Below the pieces are notes generated by a model. It saw only the letters and a list, made by a program, of their open reading frames with translations, did no database searches and was not told where the DNA came from. A DNA stretch of 64,000 nt from Ardenticatena maritima (GTDB lineage Bacteria > Chloroflexota > Anaerolineae > Ardenticatenales > Ardenticatenaceae), in NCBI RefSeq assembly GCF_001306175.1, contig NZ_LGKN01000003.1, positions 744,001 to 808,000 of the forward strand. The letters run 5' to 3'. Shown piece after piece: positions 33,988-47,200 of this stretch. How positions within the stretch are numbered: position 1 is the stretch's first letter; every line of letters begins with the position of its first letter. The position numbers and the translations under genes were made by a program.

Positions 33988-35271
33988 ATGAACACCCACA
34001 TCACCGCGGCGGTTGTCCAGGCTTCATGGCGGCGGCTCGCCGACGCCGACGAGGTGCGCAGCGAACTGAAACGCTATTTGCGGCTGGTGCGCAACAAAGG
34101 CGCCGACCTCGCCGTCCTTCCCGAACAATTCGGCCTCATGTTGGCTATTCCATTGGCAAGCGGGTTGCGCGGCAGTTTGGTGAAAAAAGCCATTGGCGGG
34201 CGTGGTTTTTGGGGGAAACTGGTGGGGGCGCTCAGCGGTGGCGCAGCGGAAATACTGGGCGGCTTGCCGGCGGTCCTTCCGCGGCTTATCGCTGAACAGA
34301 GCGACGTCATGCGCGATACGTATGTGGAACTGCTCAGCGCCGCCGCCCGCGAGCACGCCGTCTATCTCGTCGGCGGCTCGCTCTACCTGCAAGATGAAGA
34401 TGGGCAGGTGCGCGCCATGAGCCCCGTGTTCGACCGCACGGGCGACTTGCTGGGCTGGCAAGCCAAATTCCACCTGGACCCCATGGATGAAGCCTACGCC
34501 ATGCCCGGCGACACACTCAACACGTTTGAAACCGAGTTCGGGCGCTTGGGCGTGCTCCTGGGGGGCGACATCCTCTACCCCGAACTCACCCGCGCGCTCG
34601 CCTACCGTGGCGTTGTCGCGCTGGCAAACCCCGCCCTGGCGACAACCCCCGCCGAATGGCAGCGCATGCGCATTGTGCTGAACGCGCGCGCGCAAGAAAA
34701 TCAGATTTTTGCGGCGCAAGCCTTCCTCATCGGCGACAACGAATTTACCCCCGAAATCGGCGATACGTTTGAAGGCAAATCCGGCATTGTGGCGCCTGTG
34801 GAACTCACGCCCCGCACGGACGGCATCCTCGTCGAAGTCGGTTCGCCCAAAGCCGAAGGCGTCGTCAGTGCGGCGTGGGATTTTGCGGCACTCCGCCATC
34901 TGTGGGAAACGGGCAGCGCCCAGCCACGCCGCACCATGCGCAGCCACATTTTCCACGATTTGCTGCACTTTGATTACCAGAGCGGCGCAACCATCGAAGA
35001 ACGCTTCCACGCCATTGAGGAGACGCGCCGGCATCCGGTGTTGCCCGCGCCTGAGCCGACGGTCTTGCGCCCCGAAGGTGAATGGCCCGGCGAGGCGGAA
35101 GCCAAGCGCATCGAAGCATACGAAGTTCCAGAGGAAGAGATTGCCCCCACAGGCGACCTGATCGCCGACGTGAGCGCCGAAGCCGACGCGCTCACGGGAC
35201 CGCTCAATGCAGAGGAGACCGCCGAGACTGAGGAACAGCCGTCGGACGAATCGGGGGAACAGAGCGCGTAA
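33988..35271 (+). CDS. Nitrilase-superfamily protein lacking the catalytic cysteine
   Basis: 427 residues, strong RBS (GAGAGGAGG). Carbon-nitrogen hydrolase fold: Glu46 in LAVLPEQFG and Lys160 in LLGWQAKFHLDP occupy catalytic positions. The third residue is absent: where active members read ICxD, this reads LGGDILYPEL, with Gly192 encoded by GGG at 34561. Residues 60-100 carry an unusual hydrophobic or glycine-rich insert, and an acidic tail of about 100 residues is added. Probably a non-catalytic or altered-activity member; role unknown. Confidence 0.8.
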   Translation: MNTHITAAVVQASWRRLADADEVRSELKRYLRLVRNKGADLAVLPEQFGLMLAIPLASGLRGSLVKKAIGGRGFWGKLVGALSGGAAEILGGLPAVLPRLIAEQSDVMRDTYVELLSAAAREHAVYLVGGSLYLQDEDGQVRAMSPVFDRTGDLLGWQAKFHLDPMDEAYAMPGDTLNTFETEFGRLGVLLGGDILYPELTRALAYRGVVALANPALATTPAEWQRMRIVLNARAQENQIFAAQAFLIGDNEFTPEIGDTFEGKSGIVAPVELTPRTDGILVEVGSPKAEGVVSAAWDFAALRHLWETGSAQPRRTMRSHIFHDLLHFDYQSGATIEERFHAIEETRRHPVLPAPEPTVLRPEGEWPGEAEAKRIEAYEVPEEEIAPTGDLIADVSAEADALTGPLNAEETAETEEQPSDESGEQSA

Positions 35272-35288
35272 ACCGCTCAGCCACACAG

Positions 35289-35320
35289 AAAAAGGGGGCG
35301 AAGCATCGCCCCCTTTTTTT
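35289..35320. terminator. Bidirectional terminator between nitrilase-fold gene and trpA
   Basis: AAAAAGGGGGCGA and TCGCCCCCTTTTT form a stem around AGCA, followed by T on both strands; it ends the trp operon and the convergent gene. Confidence 0.93.
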
Positions 35321-35325
35321 GCGCC

Positions 35326-36129
35326 TTACGAACGTGCAGGCGTCCCGACCGCTTCACGCAATTGGCGCACAAACGCCTGCGCGGCGGCAATCGCATCGTC
35401 AGCCGCGCCAATGGTGCGCAACAACGCACTCCCCACAATCACACCATCGGCAATCTGCGCCACCATGGCGGCTTGCTCCGGGCGCGAGATACCAAACCCC
35501 ACCGCCAGCGGTAAATCGGTCGCGCGGCGCACCCGCGCCACAAAATCCGCCAGGTCGGGCGGCAACTGGTCGCGCGCACCGGTGACGCCCGTCAGCGAGA
35601 CCAGGTAGATGAACCCCTGGGCGCGCTCGGCAACCAGGCACACACGCGCATCATCCGAAGTTGGCGCCAGCAAGAAGATGAGCGCCACGCCCTGCGCCTG
35701 CAAGGCGGCGCGTAATTCGTCGGCTTCTTCGGGGGGCAAATCGGGAACAATGACGCCGTCAGCCCCTGCGCGGGCGGCTTCTTCGGCAAAGCGCGCCACC
35801 CCCATTTGCAAGATGGGGTTGTAATAGCCCATCAGAATCAACGGCACTTCCACGCCCCGCGCACGCAACGCCGCCACCTGTTCCAGACAGCGCGCCAACG
35901 TCATGCCGTTTTCCAGCGCCTGTTGCGACGTTGCCTGAATTGTTGCGCCGTCCGCCAGCGGGTCGCTGAACGGCACGCCCAATTCGATGAGGTCTGCGCC
36001 CGCTTCAACCAGCGCGGGCACAAGGTCGAGAGCGCTTTCCAACTCAGGGTAGCCCATGGTGATGAAGGGCATGAGCGCGGCACGCCCTTCACGGCGAACA
36101 CGGTCGAATGTAGCAGTGATACGGTTCAT
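35326..36129 (-). CDS. trpA: Tryptophan synthase alpha chain
   Basis: 267 residues; cleaves indole-glycerol phosphate to indole, passed to TrpB. TIM barrel with [20 protein letters not shown], the catalytic Glu in [17 protein letters not shown] and Asp in [13 protein letters not shown] region, [15 protein letters not shown] phosphate loop. Overlaps trpB by 4 bp. Last gene of the operon, ending 5 bp from the terminator. Confidence 0.97.
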
Positions 36130-37325
36130 ACGTCCACCCCCAGAGCCGCGGCAACAGTGTGCATGTCTTTATCGCCCCGCCCGCTGATGTTGACAATCAT
36201 GATCTGGTCGGGGCGCATGGTCGGCGCGCGTTTGATGGCTTCGGCGACGGCATGGGCGCTTTCCAGCGCGGGGATGATGCCTTCGAGCGCGCTCAGACGC
36301 TGCAAGGCGTCCAGGGCTTCGTCGTCCGTGGCGTAGGTGTACTCGGCGCGCCCCGTTTCGCGCAACCACGCATGTTCGGGACCCACCGCGGCATAATCAA
36401 GCCCCGCCGAGATGCTATGCGTAAGCGCAATTTGCCCGTGTGGGTCTTGCAACACGTATGTTTGCGTCCCGTGCAAGACGCCGACACGCCCCATCTTGGG
36501 GTCGGCAAAGCGTGCGGCGTGTTTTCCGCTTTCAATGCCTTCACCGCCCGCTTCAACCCCCACCATCTGCACCCCTTCGTCCTGGATGAAGGGGTAGAAA
36601 AGCCCAATCGCGTTAGAACCGCCGCCCACACAGGCGATGAGCATATCGGGCAGGCGTCCCTCGGCGGCAAGAATTTGCTCGCGGGCTTCATCGCCAATCA
36701 CCCGTTGAAAATCGCGCACGATGCGCGGGTAGGGGTGCGGTCCCAACGCCGAGCCGAGCAGGTAGTGGGTGGTGCGCACATTGGTCACCCAGTCGCGAAT
36801 GGCTTCGTTGATGGCATCTTTGAGCGTGCGACTGCCGGCGTCCACACTGCGCACTTCCGCGCCCAGCAGTTTCATGCGAAAGACGTTGAGTTTCTGGCGC
36901 TCGATATCCACAGCCCCCATGTACACCACGCATTCCAAGCCCAACAAGGCGCACACGGTGGCGGTAGCAACGCCATGCTGTCCGGCGCCTGTTTCGGCGA
37001 CGATGCGCGTTTTGCCCATTCGCTTGGCGAGCAATGCTTGCCCCAAAGCGTTGTTGATTTTGTGTGCGCCGGTGTGCGCGAGGTCTTCGCGTTTGAGGTA
37101 GATTTTGGCGCCGCCCAGGGCTTCACTGAGCCGCCGCGCAGGCGTCAGCGGGGTTGGACGCCCCGCATAGGTGCGCAACAACGTCTGAAATTCCTCGCGA
37201 AAGGCGGGGTCGGCTTGGGCTTCTTCGTAGGCGGCTTCGAGTTCACGCACCGCCGGCACCAGTGTTTCGGGGATGTACGCGCCGCCGTAGGGGCCAAAGC
37301 GCGGTCCTTGCGGCCATTCAGTCAT
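36126..37325 (-). CDS. trpB: Tryptophan synthase beta chain
   Basis: 399 residues, PLP enzyme joining indole and serine. [20 protein letters not shown] start, PLP lysine in [36 protein letters not shown], the phosphate-binding glycine loop [15 protein letters not shown] and [17 protein letters not shown]. This is the TrpB1 type that pairs with TrpA, overlapping by 4 bp. Good RBS; 59 bp after the HIT gene. Confidence 0.97.
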
Positions 37326-37384
37326 GGAAAACTCCTTTCTGTTGGATGGCGTTCTGGCTGAGGAAGAAGCGGCGCCCTTGCCAC

Positions 37385-37816
37385 TTACGCCTGGCGGATG
37401 TTCGCCAACGCGGCGCGAATGCGCGCGGCTCGTTCCGCCATGACTTCCTGGGGTTCATACTTGGGCGGTTTACCGAGACGACCATCGTTCTGCCAGCGGG
37501 GGATGAGATGCATATGCACGTGGAACACTTCTTGTCCCGCTGCACGCCCGTTGTTCTGCAAAATGTTGATGCCGTCGGGTTGCAACGCCTCGCGCAGTGC
37601 CTGCATGAGTGGGCGCGCAATGACGCCCATATGCGCCGCGTGCGCTTCGTCCAATTCCCACCAGTAGGGCACATGAACGCGCGGCACAATCAGCAAATGC
37701 CCCGGCGACGCCTGATTGATGTCCAGGAAAACCATGACCAACTCGTCTTCGTGCACCACATGGGCGGGGGCTTCGCCCGCCAAAATGCGGCAGAAAATGC
37801 ACGATGCATCGCGCAT
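37385..37816 (-). CDS. HIT-family nucleotide-binding hydrolase
   Basis: 143 residues of the Hint/Fhit superfamily. [19 protein letters not shown] start, and histidine triad in [13 protein letters not shown]. Members hydrolyse AMP-linked phosphoramidates, including aminoacyl-adenylates bound to lysyl- or other tRNA synthetases. Its place in a trp operon that also carries trpS could reflect clean-up of tryptophanyl-AMP; that link is speculation. Nine bp after trpF. Confidence 0.92.
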
Positions 37817-37825
37817 AGGCTTCCC

Positions 37826-38542
37826 TCACTCCTGGTCGGTTTGCTGCTCAGCCAGCGCGGCGTCGGCGGTACGCACGGCTTCCACAAAGGCGCGCAGGCG
37901 CGCGTGGTCCTTGCGCCCCTTCTCGCGCTCCACACCGCTCGACACGTCCACGCCCCACGGTTGCACACGTGCGATGGCGGCGCCGACGGTTTCAGGCGTC
38001 AACCCACCCGCCAGCAAAAGGCGGTAGGAACGCGCCAGCACCAACCCCACCGCCCAATCGGCGACAATGCCGGTGCCGCCCACTTCCCAGGGGTGGTAGG
38101 CGTCCATGAGGAATTGGGGCACATGCGCCTCGCGCGGCATGACGTGGGCATACGCGGCGGTGGTGGCTTCGGCATCGCCGCGGGTTTGCGGGCGAATGGC
38201 TTTGAAGGCGCGCGGTGCGAGCATGCGCACTTCGGCGGGGGGTTCGCTCCCATGCAACTGCGCCAGGTCAAGCCCGGCGGTATCGAGAATGGCACGCACG
38301 CGCTCAGGCGCTTCGTCCACAAAGACGCCCACAAAGCGGGGGGCGTCTGCGCCGTAGGTGGCGCGAACTGTTTCGACAATTCGCGCCACCGTTTCAGGCG
38401 TGACGTAGCGCGGGCTTTTGGGGTAGAAAACAAAGCCCAAAAAGTCTGCGCCCGCTTCGGCAGCCGCCAACGCATCATCCTCGTTGGTCAAGCCGCATAT
38501 TTTGATGAAGGTGCGTTCAGCACGCTGCGTTGGTATGCGCAT
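37826..38542 (-). CDS. trpF: Phosphoribosylanthranilate isomerase
   Basis: 238 residues, TIM barrel performing the Amadori rearrangement in tryptophan synthesis. KICGLTNEDDALAAAEAGAD with the catalytic Cys, FVGVFVDEAPERV, LLLAGGLTPETVG and WGVDVSSGVEREKGRKDH with catalytic Asp and phosphate loop. Starts 3 bp after the stop of the small membrane peptide. Confidence 0.96.
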   Translation of the reverse strand: MRIPTQRAERTFIKICGLTNEDDALAAAEAGADFLGFVFYPKSPRYVTPETVARIVETVRATYGADAPRFVGVFVDEAPERVRAILDTAGLDLAQLHGSEPPAEVRMLAPRAFKAIRPQTRGDAEATTAAYAHVMPREAHVPQFLMDAYHPWEVGGTGIVADWAVGLVLARSYRLLLAGGLTPETVGAAIARVQPWGVDVSSGVEREKGRKDHARLRAFVEAVRTADAALAEQQTDQE

Positions 38543-38545
38543 CGC

Positions 38546-38668
38546 TCACTGCCCCAGAACTTGCGAACCGTACAGCAACAGTGTGCCAACAATGCAAAGC
38601 GTCAACACGATAGCCAGTGCAATCACGCCGGCGATAATTCCGCTCAACAATCCACCTTGTCCTTCCAT
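38546..38668 (-). CDS. Small single-helix membrane peptide in the trp operon (40 residues)
   Basis: Too short for usual gene finding. ATG 38668 has an excellent ribosome site (AAGGAGG, 7 bp away), and the frame is intact to TGA at 38546-38548. The sequence MEGQGGLLSGIIAGVIALAI continues as a hydrophobic stretch to about residue 33, then YGSQVLGQ. One transmembrane helix is predicted by eye. It fits exactly between trpS and trpF (27 and 3 bp away), so it is cotranscribed and probably coupled to trpF. Role unknown. Confidence 0.75.
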   Translation of the reverse strand: MEGQGGLLSGIIAGVIALAIVLTLCIVGTLLLYGSQVLGQ

Positions 38669-38695
38669 GAAAAGCCTCCTTGCTTGTGATTGTTT

Positions 38696-39706
38696 TTACG
38701 CCTTGGGCAAGACAAAGCCCACACGGCGCTTGACCTCTTCGGCTTTGGGTTCAGCGACGGCACGCGCCCGCTCTGCGCCAATCGCCAGCACGCGGTCCAA
38801 TTCGGCGGGATCTTGTGCATAGACTTGGTAGCGTTCCTGAATGGGGCGCAGCGCCTCGATGATGACTTCGGCGACTTCTTTCTTCAAATCGCCATAGCCC
38901 TTGCCGGCAAAGTGCGCTTCGATTTCTTCGCGGCTCTTGCCGGTCAGCGATTCGTAGATTTGCAAGAGGTTGTTCACGCCCGCTTTTTCGGGCGCATCGC
39001 TGAAAATGATTTCGCGCCCGGAGTCGGTGACGGCGCGGCGCAAAACTTTGCGAATGCGGTCGGGCGAGTCGGTGAGATAGACGGCGTGATACTCGCCAAC
39101 TTCGCTCTTGCTCATCTTCTTGGTCGGGTCGTCAAAGCCCATGACGCGCGCGCCGCTCTTGGGAATGACCGCCTTGGGCAACTTGAAGGTCTCGCCGTAG
39201 AGATGGTTGAAGCGCTGGGCAATGTCGCGCGTCAATTCAATGTGCTGTTTCTGGTCTTCGCCCACGGGCACTTCATCCGCATCGTAGAGCAAAATATCAG
39301 CCGCCTGCAAAACGGGGTAAGTCAACAACCCCGTGCTGACGCTTTCCTGCTTTTCTTTTTCGGATTTGGCTTTGAACTGCGTCATGCGGTAGAGCCAGCC
39401 CAGCGGTGTGACACAGCCCAAAATCCACTGCGTTTCAGCATGGGCGCGCACGTGGCTCTGAATGAACAGCGTGCTTTTCTGCGGGTCAATGCCACAGGCA
39501 AGCAACAATGCGGCTAACTCGCGCGTTTGGGCGCGCAACTTGTCAGGGTCTTGCCAGACGGTGATGGCGTGCAGGTCAACAATGCAGAAGTAGTTTTCTT
39601 TTTCATCTTGCCCCTGCACCCATTGGCGAATCGCCCCCAGGTAGTTGCCCAGGTGCAAACGCCCAGAGGGCTGAATCCCCGACAAGACACGGACTTTGTT
39701 GCTCAT
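38696..39706 (-). CDS. trpS: Tryptophanyl-tRNA synthetase
   Basis: 336 residues, class I. RVLSGIQPSGRLHLGNYLGA contains the HIGH-type motif (HLGN), and KKMSKSEVGEYHAVYL contains KMSKS. Charges tRNA-Trp. Its presence inside the trp operon puts it under the same T-box, so low charging raises both tryptophan supply and synthetase. RBS AAGGAGGAA before ATG 39706. Confidence 0.96.
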   Translation of the reverse strand: MSNKVRVLSGIQPSGRLHLGNYLGAIRQWVQGQDEKENYFCIVDLHAITVWQDPDKLRAQTRELAALLLACGIDPQKSTLFIQSHVRAHAETQWILGCVTPLGWLYRMTQFKAKSEKEKQESVSTGLLTYPVLQAADILLYDADEVPVGEDQKQHIELTRDIAQRFNHLYGETFKLPKAVIPKSGARVMGFDDPTKKMSKSEVGEYHAVYLTDSPDRIRKVLRRAVTDSGREIIFSDAPEKAGVNNLLQIYESLTGKSREEIEAHFAGKGYGDLKKEVAEVIIEALRPIQERYQVYAQDPAELDRVLAIGAERARAVAEPKAEEVKRRVGFVLPKA

Positions 39707-39736
39707 ACCGATGTTCCTCCTTCTCGACGTTGAGCG

Positions 39737-40549
39737 TTATGTCAACTTTTCATGTTTCTGCTTGGGCACACCAACAAACTCGCGCACTTTTTGCGCCACG
39801 TTTTTGGCGCGCATCAGCGATGTTCCCACCAGAATCGCGTCAGCGCCCATGGCGGCGACCCGTTCCACGTCGGCGCGGGTGTGAATGCCGCTTTCAGCGA
39901 CGAGCAACACGTCGTCGGGAATGTGTGCGCGCAGGCGTTCGGTCGTCGCCAAATCCACCTCGAAGGTGCGCAAATCGCGGTTGTTGACGCCAATCACGCG
40001 CGGTGAAATCGCCAGGGCGCGTTCGAGTTCGGCTTCGTTATGCACTTCCACCAGGGCTTCCATGCCCAATTCGCGAATGAGGGCGTAGAAATCGCGCAGG
40101 TCGTTATCGCCCAGAATGCCGACAATCAGCAAGACCGCATCCGCGCCGGCGGCGCGCGCTTCGTAAATCTGGTACGGGTCTATGACGAAGTCTTTGCGCA
40201 ACACCGGCAACCGCACCGCCTGGCGTACCGCCTGCAAATGCCCGATGTTGCCCTGGAAAAAGTGCTGGTCGGTGAGGACGCTCACGGCGGCCGCTCCTTC
40301 GGCGTCATAGGTGCGCGCGAGCGCCACCGGGTCGAACTGGTGGCGCAACAACCCCTTGCTGGGCGACGCCCGTTTGACCTCGGCAATGAGCGCCACATGG
40401 TCGCCGCGCAGGGCGGCGGCAAAATCGCGCGGGGGCGGCGCGAGCATCATTTCGGCGCGCACTTCCGCCAGCGGGCGTTCCCGCCGGTGCCGCTCAACTT
40501 CATCCACCTTCCAGCGCACAATTTTTTCCAAAATGGTTTTGGGTGCCAT
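39737..40549 (-). CDS. trpC: Indole-3-glycerol phosphate synthase
   Basis: 270 residues from ATG 40549 (MAPKTILEKIVRWKVDEVER); the longer frame to 40777 overlaps trpD. Closes the indole ring. LIAEVKRASPSKGLL with catalytic Lys, VLTDQHFFQGN, VLRKDFVIDPYQI, LVEVHNEAEL, IGVNNRDLRTFEVDL and AESGIHTRAD. Thirty bp after trpD. Confidence 0.96.
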   Translation of the reverse strand: MAPKTILEKIVRWKVDEVERHRRERPLAEVRAEMMLAPPPRDFAAALRGDHVALIAEVKRASPSKGLLRHQFDPVALARTYDAEGAAAVSVLTDQHFFQGNIGHLQAVRQAVRLPVLRKDFVIDPYQIYEARAAGADAVLLIVGILGDNDLRDFYALIRELGMEALVEVHNEAELERALAISPRVIGVNNRDLRTFEVDLATTERLRAHIPDDVLLVAESGIHTRADVERVAAMGADAILVGTSLMRAKNVAQKVREFVGVPKQKHEKLT

Positions 40550-40580
40550 CGTTCCGCTTCTCTCCACTTCTTGCCAGTCG

Positions 40581-41621
40581 CTACACACCAACCCGTTGGC
40601 TGAAGGCGATGAGCGCGTCCAGTGTACGCAAGGCGGCGCCACTGTCAACGCTTTCCGCCGCTCGCTCCACCCCTTCGCGCACGTCGGACGCCACACCACC
40701 CGCCACCAGCGCCGCCGCCGCATTGAGAAGCACGACATCACGGCGCGGTCCGCGGTCTTCACCTGCCAGAATAGCACGCAAAATGCGGGCGTTCTCTTGC
40801 GGGTCGCCGCCGCGCAGGGCTTCCAGCGGGGCGGGCGTAAACCCGACGTCGCGCGGGTCGAGCGTCTCCGTCACCACCGAGCCGTTGGCGTCGGGCGTGC
40901 CAAAGCGGCTGACGCGATTGGGGGCGGTGGTGGTCAATTCATCCAGCCCGTCGCCATGCACAACAAACGCCGCACGGCTGCCCAACTGCTGCAAGACACG
41001 CGCCAGCATCTCGGTCAGCCCGGCATCGAAGACGCCCAGCAACTGGGCGCGCGCGCCGGCGGGGTTGGTCAACGGTCCCAGAACGTTGAAAACGGTACGC
41101 ACACCGAGTTCGCGGCGCGGACCAATGGCGTGGCGCATGGCGGGGTGCAAGTTGGGCGCGAAGAGAAAGCCAATGCCGATTTCGTCAATGGCTTGCGCCA
41201 CGCGCTCAGGCGTCAAATCGAGGTTGACGCCCAGGGCTTCGAGCACATCGGCGCTTCCGGAGCGGCTGGATACGCTGCGATTGCCATGTTTAGCTACCGC
41301 CAGCCCCGCCCCCGCCACAACAAACGCGGTAGTTGTGGAGATGTTGAACGTGCCGGCGCGGTCGCCGCCCGTTCCGCATGTGTCAATCACATCCTCGCGC
41401 GAGGGGCGCACCTGCACAGCGGCGCGCCGCATGGCACGCGCAAACCCCGTAATCTCGTCCACCGTCTCGCCTTTCATGCGAAGCGCCACCAGAAAGCCGG
41501 CAATTTGTGCGGGCGTGGCTTCGCCGTGCATGATCGCGTCCATGACCTGCTCGGCTTCCACCGCCCCCAACGATTCACCATCGAGCACCTTTTGCAAGGC
41601 TGTGCGCACCACTTCACTCAT
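40581..41621 (-). CDS. trpD: Anthranilate phosphoribosyltransferase
   Basis: 346 residues from ATG 41621 (MSEVVRTALQKVLDGE) with an AGGAGGG ribosome site. Couples anthranilate to PRPP. DTCGTGGDRAGTFNISTTTA is the PRPP-binding loop, followed by VAKHGNRSVSSRSGSADVLE. Separate from trpG, not fused as in enterobacteria. Starts 11 bp after the trpG stop. Confidence 0.96.
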   Translation of the reverse strand: MSEVVRTALQKVLDGESLGAVEAEQVMDAIMHGEATPAQIAGFLVALRMKGETVDEITGFARAMRRAAVQVRPSREDVIDTCGTGGDRAGTFNISTTTAFVVAGAGLAVAKHGNRSVSSRSGSADVLEALGVNLDLTPERVAQAIDEIGIGFLFAPNLHPAMRHAIGPRRELGVRTVFNVLGPLTNPAGARAQLLGVFDAGLTEMLARVLQQLGSRAAFVVHGDGLDELTTTAPNRVSRFGTPDANGSVVTETLDPRDVGFTPAPLEALRGGDPQENARILRAILAGEDRGPRRDVVLLNAAAALVAGGVASDVREGVERAAESVDSGAALRTLDALIAFSQRVGV

Positions 41622-41632
41622 GGCATCCCTCC

Positions 41633-42250
41633 TCACTCATTTGACGGTTTGCGGGTTGCGCCGGCGTTTGCCGCCGATTCCAACGGGCGATAGCGGGTGA
41701 TGAAGTTGCGCAGCAAATCATGCCCGTATTCGGTGAGAATGCTTTCGGGGTGGAATTGTACGCCAATCGTCGGGTATGTTTTGTGCTGCACCGCCATCAC
41801 TTCCCCCCGCGCCGTGAAAGCGGTGACTTCAAGGCACTCAGGAAGGGGTTCGTATGCCACCAGGCTGTGGTAGCGAGTCGCCTGGAAGGGGCTGGGAATG
41901 CCTGCGAAAATGCCGCGGCGGTCGTGGTAAATCTGGCTGGTTTTGCCATGCATGAGCCGCTCCGCGCGGTCAACTTTGCCGCCAAACGCCGCGACGATAC
42001 ATTGGTGCCCCAGACAGACGCCGAGGATGGGGGTTGTTTGGTGGAAAGTGCGAATGACATCCATGGAAACGCCGCCATCGTAGGGGTCGCCCGGTCCGGG
42101 GGAGATGACAATATGCGTGGGCGCCATCGCGCGAATGTCATCCAGCGTGATTTCGTCGTTGCGGCGCACCACCACATCAGCCCCCAATTCAGCCAGGTAC
42201 TGCACCAGGTTGTACGTAAACGAATCGTAGTTATCAATGACCAGGATCAT
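41633..42250 (-). CDS. trpG: Anthranilate synthase glutamine amidotransferase subunit
   Basis: 205 residues from ATG 42250, just behind GGAGGGCGGC. Supplies ammonia to TrpE. Class I amidotransferase triad: Cys in GVCLGHQCIVAAFGG, His and Glu in IGVQFHPESILTEYG. ISPGPGDPYDGG is the oxyanion region. Twenty bp after trpE. Could also serve para-aminobenzoate synthesis if shared. Confidence 0.95.
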   Translation of the reverse strand: MILVIDNYDSFTYNLVQYLAELGADVVVRRNDEITLDDIRAMAPTHIVISPGPGDPYDGGVSMDVIRTFHQTTPILGVCLGHQCIVAAFGGKVDRAERLMHGKTSQIYHDRRGIFAGIPSPFQATRYHSLVAYEPLPECLEVTAFTARGEVMAVQHKTYPTIGVQFHPESILTEYGHDLLRNFITRYRPLESAANAGATRKPSNE

Positions 42251-42270
42251 GCCGCCCTCCTTGTGGGTGT

Positions 42271-43776
42271 TTACAAGCCTTGTTCCGCCATTTCGATGGC
42301 GACGCCTAAGGCGCGCCCTTTGTGCAAGGTTTCTTCCCATTCGCGGGTCGGGTCGCTATCGGCGACCACGCCGGCGCCCGCCTGGACGTAGGCGGTATCG
42401 CCCAACATGAGGATGGTGCGGATGGTGATACAAGTATCCATGTTGCCGTTGAAGCCGAAGTATCCCACCGCCCCGGCATAAGGACCACGCCGCACGCCTT
42501 CCAGTTCTTCGATGATTTCCATGGCGCGCACTTTGGGCGCACCGCTCACGGTTCCCGCCGGGAAGGTGGCGCGGAAGAGGTCGAACGCATCCTTTTCAGG
42601 TCGCAGGACGCCCACCACACGGCTCACAATGTGCATCACGTGGGAGTAGCGTTCAATGGTGAAGAAGTCGGGCACGCGCACGGTACCAGGCACACAGACG
42701 CGCCCCAAGTCGTTGCGCCCCAAGTCCACCAGCATCACATGCTCGGCGCGCTCTTTGGGGTCGCCCAGCAGTTCCGTTTCCAGGGCTTTGTCCTCTTCCT
42801 CGGTGCGCCCACGCGGGCGGGTGCCGGCAATGGGGTGCGTCTCAGCGACGCCATCTTGCAAGCGCACCAGCATCTCCGGCGATGACCCAATCAGCGCCAG
42901 GCGCGGGTCGCCGCCAAAGTCGAGATAGAACATGTAGGGCGACGGGTTCAGGCGACGCAGGGCGCGATAGATGCTGAAGGGGTCGGCGAGGGTACGGCGC
43001 GAAAGCCGTTGGGAGAGCACCACCTGGAAGATATCGCCGGCTGCGATGTATTCTTTCGCCCGGCGTACCGCCGCTTCAAAGTGCGCTTGCGTGGTATGAA
43101 GCCTGAAATCTTCGCCAGAGCGACCGGGCGGCGCCGGGAGCGGCGGCAAGGGGGCGCGCACACGGGCTTCCAGCGCGTCCAGCCGCGCCACGGCTTCGTC
43201 GTAGGCGGCATCCAGGTCGGTGCCGGGGGGCACATGCGCGTTGGCGAACGCCAGCAGGCGGTGGCGCACATGGTCGAAGATGAGCAAGGTGTCGGTGATG
43301 AGGAAGGACGCCAGCGGTGTGCCCAGTTCATCACGGGCGGTGGCGGGCAAACGCTCAAAGGCGCGCACCATGTCATAGGCGACGTAGCCCACCGCCCCAC
43401 CGTAGAAACGGGGGATGTCGTGGCGCACCGTGTGCAAGGGAGCCACAGGCTGGTAGCGCGCCAGTTCGTCGCGCACGACGTGCAGCGCATCGCGTCCTTC
43501 TTCCAGCGGGATGCGGCGGCTGTGCCCATTATCGAACACGTCCACGGCATCTGCGTATGCCACAAGGCGGCGGCGCGCATTGACGCCTAAAATGGAATAG
43601 CGCCCGACCTGCTCGGCCTTCTCGACGCTTTCCAGCAAGAAACTGGGCGCATCACCGCGCAATTTGAGATAGACCGAAACAGGAGTTTCCAAATCCGCCG
43701 GCAATTCGCGATAGACCGGCACTAGGACGCCTTGTTGGGCAAGTGCGTAAAACGCCTCACGTGTCAAGTGGTCCAC
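42271..43776 (-). CDS. trpE: Anthranilate synthase component I
   Basis: 501 residues from GTG 43776, chosen because GGAGG lies 5 bp upstream; ATG 43803 (9 residues longer) has no ribosome site and abuts the T-box terminator. Converts chorismate to anthranilate. The LLES feedback motif is present (SFLLESVEKAEQVGRYSILG), so tryptophan inhibition is expected. C-terminal chorismate-binding core: HPIAGTRPRGRTEEEDKAL, LVDLGRNDLGRVC, FPAGTVSGAPKVRAMEII and GAVGYFGFNGNMDTCI. First gene of the operon. Confidence 0.96.
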   Translation of the reverse strand: MDHLTREAFYALAQQGVLVPVYRELPADLETPVSVYLKLRGDAPSFLLESVEKAEQVGRYSILGVNARRRLVAYADAVDVFDNGHSRRIPLEEGRDALHVVRDELARYQPVAPLHTVRHDIPRFYGGAVGYVAYDMVRAFERLPATARDELGTPLASFLITDTLLIFDHVRHRLLAFANAHVPPGTDLDAAYDEAVARLDALEARVRAPLPPLPAPPGRSGEDFRLHTTQAHFEAAVRRAKEYIAAGDIFQVVLSQRLSRRTLADPFSIYRALRRLNPSPYMFYLDFGGDPRLALIGSSPEMLVRLQDGVAETHPIAGTRPRGRTEEEDKALETELLGDPKERAEHVMLVDLGRNDLGRVCVPGTVRVPDFFTIERYSHVMHIVSRVVGVLRPEKDAFDLFRATFPAGTVSGAPKVRAMEIIEELEGVRRGPYAGAVGYFGFNGNMDTCITIRTILMLGDTAYVQAGAGVVADSDPTREWEETLHKGRALGVAIEMAEQGL

Positions 43777-43807
43777 AAGCACCTCCTCATCTTTTGGGTT
43801 CATGCCA

Positions 43808-44151
43808 ATAAAAAACGTCTCATCCCCTCCTGGGGACGAGACGTTGAAAGTCCCGCGGTGCCACCCCTCTTGGGCTGGAAACGAAAAAACGCGCTCGTGA
43901 GCGCGTTTGTGAAAGCCAGCCCCACTCGTTTCAGGTACGGCTCGCGCGCCAACACGGCGCAGCGAACGATACCCTCGCCGGATAACGGCGGCGCACCCGG
44001 CCAGCCCTACTTGCCCGCAAGCGTTGAGGCTGGCGGCTCCCCGGCCCATTCACACGTGCCGCTTGCGAGTGGACTTCCAGAACAGTCTCCTCAGGAGACA
44101 GGTCCACCTCTCTGGCGCGCGCTCACGTGCTACTCTTCCGGTTCACAGCCT
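43808..44151 (-). promoter_or_regulatory. tRNA-Trp T-box riboswitch of the trp operon
   Basis: Stem I runs 44151-44027: AGGCTG pairs with CAGCCT at its base, CACGTG (44129-44124) with CACGTG, around an AGTAG / GAA loop. The codon after GAA is TGG (complement 44048-44046), the specifier for tryptophan. The T-box proper, GGGTGGCACCGCG, is at 43866-43854; its TGGC pairs with the GCCA end of tRNA-Trp. The terminator stem AACGTCTCGTCCCC / GGGGATGAGACGTT (43845-43814) is followed by T6. Uncharged tRNA-Trp should favour the antiterminator and expression. Confidence 0.93.
43884..43908 (-). other. Strong extra hairpin with U-run inside the T-box leader
   Basis: AAACGCGCT / AGCGCGTTT, 9-bp perfect stem with CACG loop, followed on the minus strand by further T. 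It sits where stem III of T-box RNAs lies, just before the T-box sequence, but has the form of an intrinsic terminator. It could be stem III or an additional attenuation point. Confidence 0.6.
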
Positions 44152-44175
44152 TTCGCCAATGCGATTGTGTGGGCG

Positions 44176-44204
44176 AGTATATGCATTGTCGGCGGTGTTG
44201 TCAA
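44176..44204 (-). promoter_or_regulatory. trp operon promoter
   Basis: On the minus strand TTGACA (44204-44199), 17-bp spacer, TATACT (44181-44176); transcription should start near 44168, just ahead of T-box stem I. The -35 box begins 7 bp from the stop of the upstream regulator gene. Confidence 0.88.
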
Positions 44205-44211
44205 AAAATTG

Positions 44212-47200
44212 CTAGGCAATATCAGATTCGGAGTAGGAGACCCACTGGATGGAGTGCTGAAGGCGACGGCTCTCTTCTAAACGCCCCAGCGCGCGCAAGA
44301 TCATGGCGACACGTTTGTAACTGAGTTCCGGGCTTGCAAAGCCGGCAATCGGCGTCTGTTCGGCTATCTGCAAGAAACGGTCCACAAACGCTGTGGCGGC
44401 GTCGCGGTCCTTCTGCTTCCAACTGACATACGCCAAGCCCGCCAGGCCTTCCAATGCCACTTGCGGGTAGGTTTCCAGATACTGTACGGTTTGTTGATAC
44501 ACCTCTCGTGCCCGCTGCCATTCGCGTAAGCCGGCATAGGCATGCCCCTGCGTAGCTAATGCTGTAAGATAGACCCACTCCTCCTCAACCATCTCAGCCA
44601 GACGAATCGCGTGCTGTGCCAATTGGAGCGCACGATGATATTTCTTCCACAAGACACACAATCGCGCCCATCCTTCAAAGACATTGCCTTGCAGCGCAAG
44701 AAAATGATGCTTTTCAGCGCTCTGCAGTGCTTGGCGAAAAGAGGCTTCCGCGGCGGGAAAATCTCCCTGTTCTCGCAAGGCGTCGCCAATGTTGTTGTAT
44801 AAAAGGGCCATCATGTATTCATCTGCCAAATCAATCGAAATGCGCAATGCCTCGCGCCAGTGCATGAGGGCTTCTGCGTAACGCCGGTTCTGAATGCCCA
44901 CAGCGCCCAAAAACACAGCGGCATCTCTTTTGAGCAAGATATCATCCACACTGCGTACAAGTTCGAGAATGCGCGGCATAAAATGCCCATCGTAGTTCCG
45001 CAACATTTCAAGAGAGAGCAAGCTTCTGAGAATGATATAGGTATCGCCAACCTCCTGCGCCAATTGCACCGCCTCTTCGTAAAATGGTTGGCATTTGGCC
45101 AACACAGGCTCCTGGAAGTAAAGCATTTTGCCTTTCAAGAATGCCCACTGTGCCCGCTGGTGTTTGGTCAACGGTGCATCCGCCAGAAGGGTTTCCAAAA
45201 TGGTGTTCGCCTCTTGGTGTTTGCCACGTTGTATGTAGAAGTGCGCCAACGCCAAATACATATCGCGCGCCAAAGATGTGTGTGCAACAGATGCAACGGT
45301 TTGTTGCAACAGGGCTTCGCCCTCCAGCAACAAGCCGCTCAACTGATAGAAACGCACCAGCACAGGCAATGCTTTCGCCAGCAAGGCGTCTTCGCCATGT
45401 GTCGCCGCCCAACGCCATGCGCGTTCGATGTTGTACCGCTCAAGCCGTATGCGTTTGACAACCAACGATGGCTGCGCCCCAAATAGCGTCTTTTGCTGGG
45501 CCACAAGCCACTGAAGATAGTAGGTCGCATGCGCACGTTCAATCGTCTGGCGAGCGTCGCTTTGTTCCAAATGGCGAGCGGCAAACTGGCGAATCAGTTC
45601 GTGAACGGTGTAGCGCTCTTCCCGATGAGTCAATAACGCGCGATCAACAAGAAGTGCAAGGTCTTCGAAACGCGCCCCTACGATTGCTTCAAGTGCCTCT
45701 GCTGTTGCACCGCCTTGAAAAATGGCAAAGCTCTGCAAAATGTGTTGTTGATTGGGGGTGAGCAGGGCATATGTGCTCTGCAACACGGCTTCGATACTGC
45801 GCTGGCGAGCAGGTATATCGGGCATTGTGGTTCGCAATACATCAAGCGTATTTGCGACGGTATGGGCGATGACAGGCAACGCCAGGCGATTGCCCCAACC
45901 AGCCGCCAGTTCTAAGGCGAGCGGCCACCCTTCGAGTGCGTTACAAATGTGCGCCACAAGCGTCCGTGTTTCGGCTGCATCATCCACTTTCCCGCCGACA
46001 CGCTGGAAACGTTCAAGGAAGAGCGCCACGCTCGACGTCCGCTCATCCGGCGTGCGCGGCACAGGGAGCCCTTCGAGCAAATGAACGGTTTCGATGAATA
46101 CCCCCAACGGTCGTCGCGATGTCGCCAGAATTTTTAGGTGGGGGACAGCCTCCAGAAGCCTGGAAACGAAATGCTGTATTCCCGGCAAGTGTTCCAGGTT
46201 GTCAAGTACCAACAATGTTGGAGAGTGTTGCAGATATTCAACCAGTGTATCAAACGCCGACTCATCCGCGCGAGTGGGTCTGCCTATGGCATGCAAGAGG
46301 AAGTCGGCAAGCGTTTCGTGGTCCGATGTCGTCGCATCCACCAGCGAAACGAACCAGACGCCACCGGGGAAACGCGGCTCAATAGCGGCGAACGCTGAAA
46401 CAAATTGGCGCGCAACGGTGAGCGCCAGCCGTGTTTTCCCCACCCCTCCCAAGCCGGTAATCGTCATGAGACGATAGTCAGATGCGGCAAGGCGCATCAG
46501 TAAGTCTTCTTTTTCTTCCTCACGTCCATAAAAGGGAGACATCTCGGCGGGGAGATTGTGCGGAATGGGGCGCACGATGTGCGTTTCATTGGTCAGCGCC
46601 GACACCCCTTGCTCGTAAAGGTGTTGCAGTGCGGCTGAAGGTGGAAGAGAGACCTCTCCATCCTCGCCAAAGTTGGTTTGGTAATGCTGCACTGCTCGCG
46701 CATTTTCTTGTTGCGCCAACCAAGCACGCATCAATTGGCGATGCGCCACCTCGCTTTCGGGGTCTATCAGCAGCTGGCGGCGCGCCAACGCCTCCATGCG
46801 GTGCAGACGTCCCACGTGCGCCTCGTACTCCGCCAAACGCGCCAACACCGTCATTATTTGCCGCTGATACTTCTGGCGCCACGGGAGAAGCCACGCTGCA
46901 TAGAAGTCATTCAACAAGTCGAGGTCTTGCAAGAGGTTGCCGGTGTAAAGGTCGCTCAGGCGTTTCAACAGTTCCAGTGCGCGGTATGTTGTTGGGGCAT
47001 CCCACGTCGGCAATGCGGATTCCAGATCGCACATGAGGGCGTCGAAGCGGAAGACATCAACATCAATGGGATAGTTGGGATTCCACTGTAGCGTATTGCG
47101 TTGCGTCAAAATAGCTTCATACCCATCCCACGATTCGGGCAACACCTTGCGCAAGCGCAAGAGGGTTTGCCGCAAATTGCGCCGCCCTTTCTCCTCAAGC

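Follow-up and report, generated by a model that had tools for sequence, protein, structure and literature searches.

The window is a stretch of 64,000 nucleotides from Ardenticatena maritima that carries a trp operon on its minus strand, in the order trpE-trpG-trpD-trpC-trpS-small gene-trpF-HIT-trpB-trpA, with junction gaps of -4 to 59 nt. The trp gene names, trpF and trpS included, follow an earlier note and the sequence rather than a family search; the HIT-domain gene was identified by Pfam.

The small gene occupies positions 38546..38668 (minus strand), with the ATG at 38668-38666, 40 codons, and a TGA stop at 38548-38546. Its predicted product, MEGQGGLLSGIIAGVIALAIVLTLCIVGTLLLYGSQVLGQ, has 40 amino acids. 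The gene begins 27 nt past the stop of trpS (tryptophanyl-tRNA synthetase; 38696..39706, minus strand), which is its upstream neighbour in this genus only. Its constant downstream neighbour is trpF (phosphoribosylanthranilate isomerase; 37826..38542, minus strand), whose own ribosome-site match is weak (GTGA). The gene for the HIT-domain protein (37385..37816, minus strand; Pfam HIT, 1.2e-26) lies between trpF and trpB.

A sequence-only reading of this DNA had proposed the frame as a real gene, pointing to a strong ribosome site, a single hydrophobic helix and a distance of 3 bp to the start of trpF. All three observations were borne out. The ribosome binding site AAGGAGG lies at 38675..38681 (minus strand), six bases before the ATG; the gap between the TGA and the trpF ATG was measured as 3 nt; and the Kyte-Doolittle mean reaches 2.78 in the best 19-residue segment, with one helix predicted by AlphaFold2. 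The combination is rare among short frames of the window. Among the 460 ATG starts giving 30-60 aa (nested starts counted), a ribosome-site match of 6 or more nt was found at two and hydrophobicity above 2.2 at five, while the peptide frame alone had both. None of 20 first-order Markov shuffles of the window gave a short frame with the two properties together.

Conservation and selection in the Ardenticatenaceae

Six genomes of the family were sampled, and trpF was recovered in five of them: two from this genus (G000, the window's own genome, and G033) and three from a sister genus (G066, G093 and G113). The peptide gene stands immediately before trpF in all five. The sixth (G150) yielded no trpF, its trp contig breaking off within trpG; this assembly is 83% complete and hence uninformative. 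A search with the single peptide sequence across 150 genomes of the class gave five matches below 1e-4 (4.6e-18 to 2.4e-5), all in Ardenticatenaceae and all directly upstream of trpF. A profile built from the five homologues returned the same five convincing matches from seven genomes of the order, among which a genome of another family (G132) has trpF and lacks the peptide.

The frame is evolving as a protein-coding sequence. Between G000 and G033 there are 26 base changes, distributed 5, 2 and 19 over the three codon positions and affecting 19 codons synonymously and four non-synonymously (dN 0.060, dS 1.46, dN/dS about 0.041; such values are rough for 40 codons, and the whole set is five sequences from two genera). 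Random placement of the changes would be expected to alter 15.7 +/- 2.0 amino acids against the four observed, and 0 of 20000 simulations gave a number as low. For the three pairs within the sister genus, which are mutually non-independent, 9, 0 and 0 of 20000 simulations were as low, with dN 0.033-0.132, dS 0.36-0.87 and ratios of 0.09-0.15. Comparisons across the two genera, confined to the first 27 codons, give dN values of 0.31-0.35 and dS values of 1.5-2.8; one of the six pairs is saturated, and constraint at this distance is therefore less certain. The G000/G033 ratios of the neighbouring genes are comparable, at 0.028 for trpS, 0.059 for trpF, 0.061 for HIT, 0.023 for trpB and 0.076 for trpC (dN 0.031, 0.064, 0.079, 0.025 and 0.053, respectively; dS 0.70-1.29), and the small gene is therefore constrained about as tightly as its neighbours. 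On these comparisons the amino-acid sequence of the peptide is under purifying selection.

Conservation of the frame in related trp operons was the check that the sequence-only reading had called for, and the frame is kept in every family genome with trpF. With this and with the purifying selection, 38546..38668 is almost certainly a real protein-coding gene, as that reading had predicted.

AlphaFold2, run on the five homologues, predicts one helix over residues 3-39 (mean pLDDT 87.5, pTM 0.52). The helix core is encoded by codons 6-20 (38609..38653, minus strand, counted from the ATG at 38668), where Gly6, Gly10, Ala13, Gly14, Ala17 and Ala19 are identical in the alignment of the five. The full set of invariant residues is M1, E2, G6, L8, G10, I11, A13, G14, V15, I16, A17, L18, A19, L24, C25, I26, V27 and five later ones. 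Gly6, Gly10 and Gly14 form a Gly-x3-Gly-x3-Gly row, joined by Ala13 and Ala17, in the best-kept part of the helix; Gly-x3-Gly patterns are common in membrane helices. The C-terminal third is divergent between the genera, and the length is 40 versus 44 residues. Charges along the peptide are few: the sister genus has Arg close to the C-terminus, G033 has it at positions 4 and 40, and G000 has none. An inside location of the C-terminus is a weak guess.

Unlike the sequence, the spacing has not been kept. The distance from the peptide stop to the trpF ATG is 3 nt in G000, -4 nt in G033 (an ATGA overlap), 40 nt in G066, 42 nt in G113 and 16 nt in G093. Directly upstream of the peptide gene, the sister genus has trpC where this genus has trpS. 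The exact fit between trpS and trpF that the sequence-only reading had stressed is thus a property of this genus (G000 and G033) and does not extend to the sister genus, with its trpC upstream and its gaps of 16-42 nt. Since the peptide stays before trpF where trpS sits elsewhere in the operon, its tie is to trpF rather than to trpS. Ribosome sites of the peptide gene are perfect for AGGAGG or longer in G066, G113 and G093 also; in G033 there is a G-rich run with a perfect match to AGG only. Judged by these motifs, the ribosome site that belongs to the small gene itself is good in four of the five genomes.

The placement of trpS within the trp operon varies in its own right: the gene follows trpC in this genus and precedes trpG in both the sister genus and G150 (window 38696-39706; L082 5199-6188; L083 6489-7481; L084 3699-4697; L085 6476-7465). 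In G066 and G113 trpE precedes the trpS that stands before trpG, and the G093 contig ends there. The trpS of G066 and G113 is of a divergent type, about 40% identical, while that of G093 is about 70% identical.

Relatives outside the family and the position before trpF

At E 1 or better, the single peptide matched 41 of the 150 class genomes. The best match outside the family (E 0.0078) lies inside a 667-aa open frame, and no short trp-linked gene was seen in the frames around seven weak class matches. The profile was also run against 400 genomes of the phylum, where the window's own genome is the sole one from Ardenticatenaceae among the matches listed; 32 genomes matched at E 0.05 or better, and the frames around five matches were inspected. 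The best phylum match beyond the window's own was in G367 (6.6e-5 over 25 positions). It falls on a hydrophobic segment at the N-terminus of a 105-aa frame (L088 1291-1608, minus strand) and is 58% identical to the peptide over 26 residues; this frame is without a Pfam match, the adjoining frames look membrane-anchored by eye, and no trp context was recognised around it. We judge the segment to be a look-alike helix; remote kinship is possible, and neither is proven.

Viral contigs gave no match to the peptide. Known families gave nothing convincing (best E 0.032 in Pfam, 0.043 in NCBIfam and 0.55 in PDB), so that homology indicates no partner. A published report of the peptide was not found among titles and abstract openings of the open-licence literature. 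In the samples searched, then, the peptide is without a convincing homologue outside Ardenticatenaceae, and by these searches the gene is probably specific to the family as far as sampled.

The upstream neighbourhood of trpF was surveyed in 90 of the 99 class genomes with a trpF match, one place in each. Nine genomes (G007, G017, G022, G069, G078, G085, G092, G096 and G104) were omitted, because of contig ends or weak matches or for no strict reason. Three of the 90 loci have less than 300 nt before trpF and 21 are without a recognised upstream gene; frames above 90 aa from the first possible start were not counted. Within these bounds, a hydrophobic short frame precedes trpF in five of five family loci versus one of 85 others, and that single frame scores lower (1.84), with no clear ribosome site seen on inspection by eye.

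Another occupant of the same position is DUF554 (PF04474). Nine of the 90 loci have it as their closest recognised gene upstream of trpF, and in seven of these it ends no more than 60 nt from the trpF match (L013 754-1479, L014, L019, L023, L124, L126 and L142; identity Pfam-checked for L013), with trpC before it in six of the seven. Its likeness to the peptide is one of position; it differs in being about 240 aa long and in having no similarity to it, and the peptide had no Pfam match, DUF554 included, at E 0.001. The idea that the peptide is a remnant of DUF554 was rejected on an hhalign probability of 0.2% against one DUF554 sequence and on the finding that all five peptide genomes carry a DUF554 gene of their own, away from the trp operon. 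The slot before trpF hosts different membrane proteins in different lineages, though this could be coincidence. No paper naming both 'DUF554' and 'tryptophan' was found in the open-licence literature. In the genome from the sister family (G132), a 162-aa frame without a Pfam match (L007 2229-2717) fills much of the gap between trpC and trpF.

Possible roles of the peptide

The explanation that we favour, and consider somewhat better than an even bet, is a family-restricted small single-pass inner-membrane protein that is tied to trpF and packs against another membrane helix. Helix packing as the mode of action is suggested, with moderate confidence, by the conserved small-residue face. The small gene would be co-transcribed with the trp genes and its product inserted in the membrane, where the Gly/Ala face would pack against another transmembrane helix, belonging either to a second copy of the peptide or to a larger membrane protein. 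A partner of the latter kind might be steadied or tuned when the operon is on, in the fashion of AcrZ or CydX. As partner, a permease or other membrane protein tied to aromatic metabolism and an unrelated membrane complex that simply exploits expression of the operon are equally likely, each at well under even odds; a role as tether for TrpF or other trp enzymes is improbable, and something else takes the remaining likelihood. What suggests a tryptophan-related partner is the fixed neighbourhood and nothing besides. The sequence-only reading had suggested help to a transporter, an idea that the present results neither favour nor disfavour.

The strongest rival is a membrane protein that has nothing to do with tryptophan and is carried along by a well-expressed operon, a role about as likely as a tryptophan-related partner and to be taken seriously, if at less than even chances. 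Such a passenger would suit the finding that none of the 85 other class loci surveyed has a peptide homologue ahead of trpF, and also a slot that takes different occupants, with DUF554 there in some other loci and elsewhere in the five peptide genomes. Against it, the peptide is found ahead of trpF in both genera despite the change in trpS placement, and the window's genome has no convincing second copy (next match E 0.08).

A bolder form of the favoured reading makes the peptide a dedicated membrane subunit of tryptophan metabolism, its Gly-zipper helix gating or stabilising an aromatic-compound permease, or docking TrpF at the membrane, and made in step with the pathway. We offer this tentatively, as rather unlikely. 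If it were true, tryptophan synthesis in Ardenticatenaceae would gain a membrane control point, and we know of no other for this pathway.

The peptide might instead be a tether, bringing TrpF or adjacent trp enzymes together at the membrane. The constancy of trpF as a neighbour would suit a tether, but almost nothing of the peptide would extend beyond helix 3-39 and the C-terminal tail is not kept between genera; this reading is improbable.

Very little credence can be given to an inert peptide whose frame does no more than link translation of trpS or trpC to that of trpF; a coupling-only role was a reading that the sequence-only work had entertained. Coupling would be served by the 3-nt gap and weak trpF site of G000 and by the 4-nt stop/start overlap of G033; the gaps of 16, 40 and 42 nt in the sister genus, where the amino-acid sequence is held, run against it, and coupling requires no particular peptide. 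That work had named a frame broken in close relatives, with the spacing kept, as the outcome that would undo a real gene. We looked for it and saw the reverse, a frame kept while spacing ranges from -4 to 42 nt. Purifying selection on the frame, the shifting spacing and the different position of trpS in the sister genus together exclude coupling as the sole function, though in this genus coupling to trpF may arise as a by-product.

We consider it just as implausible that the peptide is the small hydrophobic toxin of a toxin-antitoxin pair. Size and hydrophobicity agree with one, but the gene is a single copy within a biosynthetic operon in five of five family genomes with trpF. Type I toxins have an overlapping or adjacent antisense antitoxin RNA; an Rfam scan of 34000-46000 found no family at gathering scores, a result that covers known families and that a new antisense RNA would escape. 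Last, a tryptophan-sensing leader or attenuator peptide would agree with a location inside a trp operon and is hardly credible here, since trp leader peptides carry tryptophan codons ahead of the operon and the small gene has no Trp codon, is mid-operon and lies in the region where the Rfam scan found no family.

Comparison with known small proteins

Trp_oprn_chp is a membrane protein of actinobacterial trp operons and in that respect resembles the peptide. It is a much longer protein and is absent among the Pfam and NCBIfam matches listed for the peptide. CydX, of 37 aa, acts in cytochrome bd. The small membrane protein AcrZ acts by binding AcrB (PMC7267776). Like the peptide, AcrZ and CydX are small single-helix proteins, and each binds a large membrane protein; the difference is that their own partners are known, while the best match of the peptide to a solved chain has E 0.55.

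Closer in genomic setting is TrpM (SCO2038/trpX) of Streptomyces coelicolor, a short frame in trpCXBA that is conserved among streptomycetes and has no similarity to proteins of known function (PMC5036795). Its loss delays growth, minimal-medium growth is rescued by tryptophan, and the putative aminopeptidase PepA is an interaction partner of TrpM (PMC5036795). TrpM and the peptide gene share the status of orphan short frames within a trp locus; the comparison is by description rather than by sequence, and TrpM differs in lying between trpC and trpB and in binding PepA. The main text of that source nowhere uses the words 'transmembrane' or 'hydrophobic'. TrpM is evidence that tryptophan supply can be controlled by an orphan short frame within a trp locus, though by other means (PMC5036795).

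Small membrane proteins have been described as a class (PMC10903887). Taken as frames of 60-180 nt that encode a single membrane segment (15-30 residues) and are conserved in other organisms, the class accommodates the peptide, with its 40 aa, hydrophobic mean of 2.78, helix over residues 3-39 and presence in five genomes of two genera. The peptide is an orphan addition to this broad class, and one of the best-studied operons gains a selected, family-restricted predicted membrane protein of 40-44 residues. With its fixed place at trpF against the varying place of trpS, a membrane link to tryptophan synthesis becomes testable by start-codon mutation. The case also illustrates that a short frame spotted by eye can gain strong support from five related genomes alone.

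A further feature of the operon concerns the HIT gene, which follows trpF at every one of the five family loci, truncated by the contig end in G093. It was not found after trpF in 25 other class loci (L007-L031), where up to about 1.5 kb past trpF was covered. Hint proteins have activity on aminoacyl-adenylates, and with the HIT protein and trpS encoded in one operon, clearing of aminoacyl-adenylates is a candidate role.
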